Source: Salvelinus alpinus (taxonomy: Eukaryota; Chordata; Actinopteri; Salmoniformes; Salmonidae). Taken from it: 64,000 bases of DNA. The stretch lies in NCBI RefSeq assembly GCF_045679555.1, contig NC_092110.1:3239390-3303389 (forward strand). The letters are read 5' to 3'. Made by a program: the position numbers and the translations under genes. The notes beneath the pieces were generated by a model. It worked only from the letters and a program-made list of their open reading frames with translations, had not been told where the DNA came from and ran no database searches. Positions within the stretch are counted from its first letter, which is position 1. Every line of letters starts with the position of its first letter. Positions 27,501 to 30,500 of the stretch are shown here, in pieces.

Positions 27501-30500
27501 TTGTCCTGATCTCTGTTAAGACGAGATGTAATAATTTCAGTTGTCCAGCCAATAGTCACTTCAACAATATCTCAAAACCGGAATCATGAAAAAACAACAG
27601 CCACAGTAGCCATTTTATTAAGTTTCAAGAGATGCCAGAAACGTGTGAATTTTTGTCACACACAGAAGACAAGGTCATGTCAATAAATGTAAATGTTTAC
27701 ATTACTTGGTCTGGTTTACCTTTCATTCCTTGTTCCATAGTCTTGTTGCTGGTTATGCTTCCGGACCATAGGCTTTATAATGCCACCCCACGTGCTATTC
27801 TTCTTGCATTCCATTGTGTCAGTGTTAGAAACGATATCCTTGTTGGTCGATGACTTCTCCACGGGTACAGAAGCTGATATCTGCCTGCAGTGGAGAGAAG
27901 ACTGTACCTATAACTTGAGACTTAACATTGAACATGAACTTTTGTGAACCAGAGTGGGGGTGCTTGGAGTTAAAAAAAAAAAACGTTTTATTGTCATGCT
28001 TCTCTGTTTGCTAATGAATTCATTGGTGTTAAGGGAAGACCTACCCATTCTCTTTCCTCATAGTGGACCCATTAGGCTTTGCCGAGTGGTTAACAGTATC
28101 ATCTCCCGTCTTCTTCTTCTCCTTCTTCGTCTCTTTCCTCGACAGTGTCCTCTTGAAGTTCTGGATCATGCCTCCCTTCTTTTTCTCTGGGCTGTTGTCC
28201 TGTATGGATAAAGGCCACATAATCACACAGAGAGACACAACACTACAGTGGAAATCAAAGCATTAACTCTTGCCAGCTAAATTGCTTTCCTTGCCATTCA
28301 AGCTGTCGGGCATGAAAAGTCATTTCTAACTGAGCAAATTCTGCTCAATTATAAATACAGTAAGCAGTCAGTCACATGTACAATAATGTCCTTATCCTTC
28401 TTGAGTACGAAGCGGCCCTCCCTGTTGTCTGTGTTCCAGTTCAGCTGCACATCCAGAGGCTTTTCACTCAGGTCCAGCTGCCGTTCTTCTGCCATGGTTA
28501 ACAGGGCGAAGAGTGGGAGAGTAACATGAACAAATTTACAAGATAATACACTCAATCTATTCAAAATATAGAATTGTTCACAAATGCCCTGCCCCCAAGT
28601 GTACTCTTTAATTCATGTATCCATCCATCCAGCCGTCTGTCTGTGTCTGTCCATCCGTCCATCCATCCATCCATCCATCCATCCATCCATCCATCCATCC
28701 ATCCATCCATCTTACCCTTGTTAGCATGGACCTCAAACAGGAAATAGGGAGTATTCAACATCTTCATGTCCGGTCTGAACTTCTCTGACAGTGTTTCAAT
28801 AACCTCTCCAGTGGTGGTGGTGCTGCTGACACGCAGGCATTTGGTGGCAACGTTCCCTGCAACATGGTCCTCAAAGTAGAACCGCATCACTCCATGGAAC
28901 TCTAAGTTCTAGAGGGGAAAGAGTGGATGAACGAAGTCGAGCAGAGGTAACGTAGCTAACTTAGCTAACTAGCTAGCAATCTTCATTTGTTTATCTAAAC
29001 CAAAATCTACATAGCTAGCTTTCATAATCCGCTGGCTAGATATTCCAAAGCAAATCAATGTAATAAGCCAGCTGCTATCTGGCGATGAGATTTGTAACTT
29101 GAAGTGTAAATTGGAGAAATGCAGAGGTATTAGTAAGGAAGGGATAATGTGGGTGACTAATTGATGTCTGTTGGTGGTGGGTATTGTGTGTGAGGGTTGT
29201 TAGTATGCATGATCTATTGACATGGGGGGGATGGGTGGATATAGAACGGAAAGGCTCTGGAGCAACGAACCGCCCTTGCTGTCTCTGCCTGGCCGGTTCC
29301 CCTCTCTCCACTGGGATTCTCTGCCTCTAACCCTATTACAGGGGCTGGTTTGTGCCGTGGCGGAGATCTTTGTGGGCTATACTCGGCCTTGTCTCAGGAT
29401 GGTAAGTTGGTGGTTGAAGATATCCCTCTAGTGGTGTGGGGGCTGTGCTTTGGAAAAGTGGGTGGGGTTATATCCTTCCTGTTTGGCCCTGTCCGGGGGT
29501 ATCATCGGATGGGGCCACAGTGTCTCCTGACCACTCCTGTCTCAGCCTCCAGTATTTATGCTGCAGTAGTTTATGTGTCGGGGGGCTAGGGTCAGTTTGT
29601 ATTATCTGGAGTACTTCTCCTGTCTTATCCGGTGTCCTGTGTGAATTTAAGTATGCTCTCTCTAATTCTCTCCTTCTCTCTTTCTTTATCTCTCTCGGAG
29701 GACCTGAGCCCTAGGACCATGCGTCAGGACTATCTGGCATGATGACTCCTTGCTGTCCCCAGTCCACCTGGCCTTGCTGCTGTTCCAGTTTCAACTGTTC
29801 TGCCTGCGGCTATGGAACCCTGACCTGTCCACCGGACGTGCTACCTGTCCCAGACCTGCTGTTTTCAACTCTCTAGAGACCGCAGGAGCGGTAGAGATAC
29901 TCTTAATGATCGGCTATGAAAAGCCAACTGACATTTACTCCTGAGGTGCTGACTTGCTACACCCTCGATAACTACTGTGATTATTATTATTTGACCATGC
30001 TGGTCATTTATGAACATTTGAACATCTTGGCCATGTTCTGTTATAATCTCCACCCGGCACAGCCAGAAGAGGACTGGCCACCCCTCATAGCCTGGTTCCT
30101 CTCTAGGTTTCTTCCTAGGTTTTGTCCTTTTTAGGGAGTTTTTCCTAGCCACCGTGCTTCTACACCTGCATTGCTTGCTGTTTGGGGTTTTAGGCTGGGT
30201 TTCTGTACAGCACTTTGAGATATCAGCTGATGTACGAAGGGCTATATAAATACATTTGATTTGATTTGATTTGTTTGGGACAAAGTAGTAAAATGTTAGA
30301 TAATCACTGTCTAATGTGTGTCCTACAGACTAATCCTGCTGCGGACACATCATGCTATCCTGGAGCATGATGAGAATGTGGGATGCAAAAAAGCCAGGAC
30401 AGCCAAAGATATTTATGAAAGCTAAACCCCCTCTTGAGAAAACAACATCACCAATCCACAAGCCAAGTGCTCCTCATACTTTTCACACCCTTGCATCCTT

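Follow-up and report, generated by a model that had tools for sequence, protein, structure and literature searches.

The described proteins closest to the gene reported here are vertebrate afadin (AFDN, AF6 or MLLT4) and Drosophila Canoe. For mammalian afadin, the available portion of one study reports that RA1 drives RAP1B binding, that the tandem RA domains drive the binding of other Ras proteins, and that deletion of the FHA domain abolishes SCRIB binding (PMC9355967). Within RA1, a Leu-Phe motif and Lys58 hold Ras (PMC5653649, accessible text), and the accessible text of another source describes a coiled coil linking alphaE-catenin to F-actin in the solved afadin, residues W1514, R1516 and D1517 that touch alphaE-catenin and actin, and a segment, 1393-1510, that binds the alphaE-catenin M3 domain (PMC11482809). 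In the excerpts available from the fly work, RA2 is dispensable for viability and plays an accessory part in patterning the eye and, under sensitized assay conditions, in the embryo; deletion of RA1 virtually eliminates function. The paralogy of RADIL and RASIP1 is set out in a further source, of which part was accessible (PMC11006394).

The window analyzed here, a stretch of 64,000 nucleotides (C25:3239390-3303389), contains an afadin gene that shares with the vertebrate afadins, including two longer copies on contigs C8 and C27 of the same genome, RA1 with its Leu-Phe alphaN helix, DIL, PDZ and the coiled coil, but that lacks RA2, FHA, the charged helix and the C-terminal arm and encodes only 1284 aa. 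RADIL and RASIP1 have the domain order RA-FHA-DIL, followed in RADIL by a PDZ domain as well, and they resemble the C25 protein in having a single RA and a DIL domain and, in the case of RADIL, a PDZ. However, both keep the FHA that C25 lacks, the RA-FHA-DIL order is absent from the C25 protein, and among its 168 PDB matches the top eight places go to chains of afadin or Canoe (covering RA1, PDZ and, with 9dva, the coiled coil). The s-Afadin isoform, which retains RA2 and FHA, likewise has a shortened C-terminus. It is nevertheless a splice form of a full gene, in contrast with the separate C25 locus (PMC10399776, accessible portion). Canoe without RA2 resembles the C25 protein in having RA1 alone within an otherwise kept scaffold, although it is a laboratory allele with FHA present, whereas the C25 gene is natural and lacks both domains (PMC11698047, text available in part). 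An AFDN delta-FHA construct shares the missing FHA and would predict a loss of Scribble binding for the C25 protein, but it is a construct with RA2 present, while C25 is a genomic locus from which RA2 is absent (PMC9355967, available portion).

The C25 gene occupies 36786-7331 on the minus strand, and its 25 exons join into a 3855-nt frame that runs open from ATG to a single terminal stop (Table 1), in agreement with the earlier note's statement that all exons outside the junction keep frame. Exons were picked using the C8 and C27 exons as guides, and their ends were placed by eye at splice motifs; exon 1 was located by matching to an expected exon-1 peptide. Because the exons were hand-chosen along open, homologous frames, the openness of the joined frame is partly built in. 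Wherever C8 or C27 offers a match, which is so for 23 of 25 exons and weakly for some of them, the frame agrees with that of the homologue; exons 1 and 22 are unmatched, and no credible counterpart of exon 22 was found in either longer copy. All 24 acceptors are AG and 23 of the 24 donors are GT, with a GC donor after exon 7, in the sequence context usual for such donors, and a weak donor at exon 16 (GTTAGA). Since 19 of the 24 introns measure 107-258 bp, the 160-bp intron between exons 4 and 5 has a size typical of its neighbors.

Table 1. Exons and junction of the C25 afadin gene, in window positions.
Feature	Position	Strand	Basis
Exon 1: initiator ATG, alphaN helix with Leu-Phe motif	36691..36786	-	matched to expected exon-1 peptide
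Exon 2: RA1, first part	28716..28908	-	Pfam, gene model
Exon 3: RA1, second part; weak donor (GTGACT)	28376..28488	-	Pfam, gene model
Exon 4: basic linker following RA1; phase 2 exit; homologous to C8 E4	28045..28199	-	
160-bp intron, putative deletion junction; C8 has seven RA2/FHA exons here	27885..28044	-	
Exon 5: phase 2 in and out; aligns to C8 E12a tail plus E12b; conserved [IM][IV]KPM[IV]R	27720..27884	-	
Exon 6: small, following exon 5 and preceding the DIL exons; homologous to C8 E13	27454..27512	-	
Exon 7: DIL region start; donor CAG|GCAAGT (GC-AG intron, 27067-27072)	27073..27296	-	
Exons 8-11: DIL region	22285-22140, 21938-21847, 21648-21525, 21294-21135	-	Pfam, gene model
Exons 12-13: DIL to PDZ	17735-17592, 17333-17135	-	
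Exons 14-18: PDZ	16880-16786, 16678-16592, 16477-16412, 16265-16192, 12952-12834	-	Pfam
Exons 19-22: presumed disordered region, lacking the charged helix of C8/C27	12599-12402, 9655-9570, 9405-9268, 9112-8468	-	
Exons 23-24: coiled coil with SPDPWKRDA	8267-8154, 7919-7672	-	
Exon 25: short C-terminus ending ...SNASIKVKA, then stop	7331..7445	-	

Several other features were observed in the window. A CATC/GATG tetranucleotide array at ~28654-28711 abuts the exon 2 donor; it may be variable in length and might influence splicing. Taxilin-like exons (58643-63465, minus strand) lie upstream of the afadin gene on the same strand and may provide a synteny marker; one of three pieces scanned gave Pfam Taxilin at 28.9 bits, under the cut-off of 30.3, and the others were labelled by eye. 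A LINE-like element carries a reverse transcriptase (46692-47732, plus strand; RVT_1, 113.7 bits), and a transposase-like frame was labelled by eye at 43745-44395 (minus strand). Beyond the afadin stop, at ~6590-6725 on the plus strand, a short stretch read by eye, CMHGHGRTGTMLA, looks like a catalytic loop, which we take to be of the dual-specificity phosphatase kind.

The proposed RA1-DIL-PDZ order was recovered, with every domain over its Pfam cut-off in the C25 protein (RA, 60.1 bits; DIL, 81.7 bits, cut-off 24; PDZ, 47.9 bits, cut-off 23.2), the PDZ bearing a two-residue insertion preceding GMGVSI. The identification as an afadin paralogue also held, in that the closest relatives are afadins and intron phases are common with C8, being the same around exon 4, the 3' side of exon 5 and exon 6. 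Leu27 and Phe28 of the Leu-Phe motif are kept together with the alphaN helix, as is Lys58 of RA1, at positions assigned by presumed numbering. The SPDPWKRDA stretch of the coiled coil is unchanged, and W1514, R1516 and D1517, placed by spacing, are kept.

Consistent with the claimed loss of RA2 and FHA, Pfam at its cut-off gave a single RA stretch, DIL and PDZ in the C25 protein and no FHA; the RA_2 family also passed the cut-off, over the RA1 stretch. As a control, six joined C8 exons that are absent from C25 gave both RA and FHA. When C8 exons E5-E11 and E12a were used as single queries, no relic was found in the window (8/8, best E 0.79-8.3), while the control C8 RA1 exon gave an E of 2.6e-31 in the same search and all eight queries were found in C27. 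The missing exons were also sought on other contigs with a joined query of C8 E5-E8, E10 and E11 (E9 and E12a left out) against the genome of 2.37 Gb in 928 contigs, scoring the best candidates only. All 12 matches at E <= 0.001 lay at C8 and C27, six at each, which speaks against displaced RA2/FHA exons elsewhere. Both domains are thus gone from this locus, but the loss is larger than the earlier note had described, since it also takes in the charged helix and the C-terminal arm: the C8 query for the charged helix before the coiled coil had a best E of 0.31 in the window versus 2.4e-10 in C27, and that for the long C-terminal arm had a best E of 0.97 in the window and was found in C27. We presume that the charged helix falls within afadin 1393-1510. 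The family features missing from C25 include the second RA of the tandem, FHA and the charged helix N-terminal to the coiled coil.

At the exon 4/5 junction, the claimed 160-bp intron is exact in size, and its splice sites are good (donor GTAGGT, acceptor CACTGCAG), with phase 2 on both sides as had been stated. The C8 exons missing here measure 161 (E5), 158 (E6), 88 (E7), 159 (E8), 45 (E9), 95 (E10) and 254 nt (E11), which add up to 960 nt (320 codons) with phase 2 at either end; because the introns flanking E5-E11 are both phase 2, removing exactly these exons keeps the frame without repair. C8 E12a (70 nt, phase 2 to 0) has no separate equivalent in C25, where exon 5 shares its entry phase (2) with E12a and its exit phase with E12b, and where the first ten residues of exon 5 align weakly to the start and tail of E12a. 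Exon 5 looks like a shortened E12a fused to E12b, a reading that we prefer, despite the weak similarity over those 10 residues, because it needs no frame repair. A deletion taking all of E12a as well is disfavored; at 1030 nt, it would put the frame off by 1 unless the acceptor had shifted upstream. Exon 5 does align to sequence after FHA, as had been suggested, but as the E12a tail plus E12b, since E12b alone starts in phase 0. The figure of about 350 missing residues was near rather than exact, the C8 count being 320 codons plus perhaps ~13 residues of E12a. Exon absence and frame-neutral loss fit the idea of a clean deletion in a duplicate copy, although E5-E11 may have been removed in a single event or in several, with end points in introns 4 and ~11.

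We give a probability of roughly 0.75 to the reading, drawn from sequence comparison, that the C25 gene is a coding afadin paralogue that lost E5-E11 by deletion and probably encodes a functional junction scaffold that leans towards Rap1 and has no tie to Scribble. Protein queries located RA1 and DIL at three loci each (C25, C8 and C27) and RA2/FHA at two (C8 and C27), and of the 41 matches from an RA family search, one lay on C25, two at the C8 gene and two at the C27 gene. The three-locus count rests on the RA1, DIL, RA2/FHA and DNA queries. No fourth afadin copy was found with the RA1, DIL and 1901-base DNA queries; of the 14 matches to the DNA query, seven were at the three loci and seven at one place on C7, to an intron stretch of ~60 bases. 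Against nine C8 queries (RA1 and E5-E12a), C27 showed 82.6-100% identity, so the two look like recent duplicates, and since no partner of the C25 gene was found while C8 and C27 are paired, one copy of four seems to have been lost. Searches of 100-kb stretches at C8 and C27 gave no exon 1 (best E 1.4 and 1.2).

C25 and C8 are 65-77% identical in the three domains compared (74/98 in RA1). This divergence far exceeds that between C27 and C8, as expected for the product of an older teleost duplication, and it lends weight to a strong alternative, which we hold at slightly less than even odds, that the loss is old and common to many teleosts and that the C25 gene is an ordinary annotated short afadin duplicate and not peculiar to this lineage. 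On the other side, no account of such a short copy was found in the literature, in a search of limited scope that left subscription journals mostly outside, and the accessible part of one source discusses zebrafish afadin and names no paralogues there (PMC10399776).

Constraint on the gene was assessed using a codon model of the three sequences (C25, C8 and C27) over 770 of 808 aligned codons, or 770 of the 1284 C25 codons; exons 1 and 22 were left out because they have no homologous C8 or C27 stretch (38 of 808 columns dropped), and the weak matches of exons 5, 6 and 19-21 were included. A neutral C25 branch was rejected over the 770 codons (2 delta lnL 490.8) and in each subset (RA1, 67.1; DIL region, 217.9; PDZ, 107.8; coiled coil, 45.1), and a separate C25 ratio did no better than one common ratio (2 delta lnL 3.35, two-ratio versus one). 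The C25 branch is saturated, at 22 neutral changes per codon for the full codon set and at the upper bound for PDZ, and the ratio values were not trusted, so that branch dN/dS was set aside for dating the loss. Because this branch also includes the C8/C27 stem, the result speaks to long-term constraint rather than to constraint since the deletion. The open frame and the rejection of neutrality fit long-term selection on the gene; selection on the short form itself, as the earlier note described it, is a more tentative claim, because the tested branch also spans the time before the deletion.

A gene free of constraint from the C8/C27 split onward would be expected to carry 10-14 stops and 7-9 hits to splice dinucleotides; zero stops and, apart from the one GC donor, zero splice hits were observed. 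Identity to solved afadin chains is lower for C25 than for C8 in RA1 (70/97 vs 93/98), PDZ (67/91 vs 85/91) and the coiled coil (49/80 vs 69/80). This faster evolution, together with the weak donors of exons 3 and 16, the GC donor and the further missing parts, could mean relaxed constraint. It also favors the view that the gene is recently dead or dying, no longer needed where two longer copies could cover for it, with its frame open by chance. However, over a period one tenth as long as that since the C8/C27 split, the chance that the frame stays intact is 0.009-0.03 if indels are assumed at 10% of substitutions and 0.10-0.18 without indels, and the RA1 and coiled-coil contact residues are retained, making such decay improbable. 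Least credible is an assembly dropout, in which the true C25 locus has RA2/FHA exons that were lost or collapsed: the evidence does come from one assembly and from a genome search that scored best candidates only, but the window has 0 N bases, the 160-bp intron is well spliced in its motifs and resembles the other short introns of the gene in size, the six exons searched match no contig other than C8 and C27, and, as C25 is only ~75% like C8 (by RA1), collapse onto C8 or C27 is hardly expected.

Under the preferred reading of a coding, shortened scaffold, the functional steps build on the conserved residues and on published mammalian and fly protein experiments. Active Rap1 would bind alphaN-RA1, by which the C25 protein would be recruited and switched. 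The protein would join the adherens junction through its PDZ domain (nectin and cadherin tails) and its coiled coil, with DIL retained, and the coiled coil would still bridge alphaE-catenin and F-actin. The avidity that two RA domains give for other Ras proteins would be lost, as would the FHA-Scribble link, so junctions would be reinforced without Scribble beside the longer C8 and C27 copies. Two observations argue against a Rap1 leaning: in pull-downs with the mammalian protein, RA1 by itself recovers less GTPase than the tandem does (PMC9355967, available portion), and RA1 and RA2 of the fly protein bind Rap1 with similar affinity, according to the excerpts available.

More tentatively still, the C25 gene, without RA2, FHA and the presumed M3-binding segment, may have been kept as a Rap1-only junction clamp beside the longer copies, one that couples junctions to actin, excludes Scribble and Ras, and competes with full-length afadin for the same sites. 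Without both modules and yet open, the C25 gene is a natural experiment on which modules of the scaffold are expendable, for which two longer afadin copies in the same animal offer a comparison.
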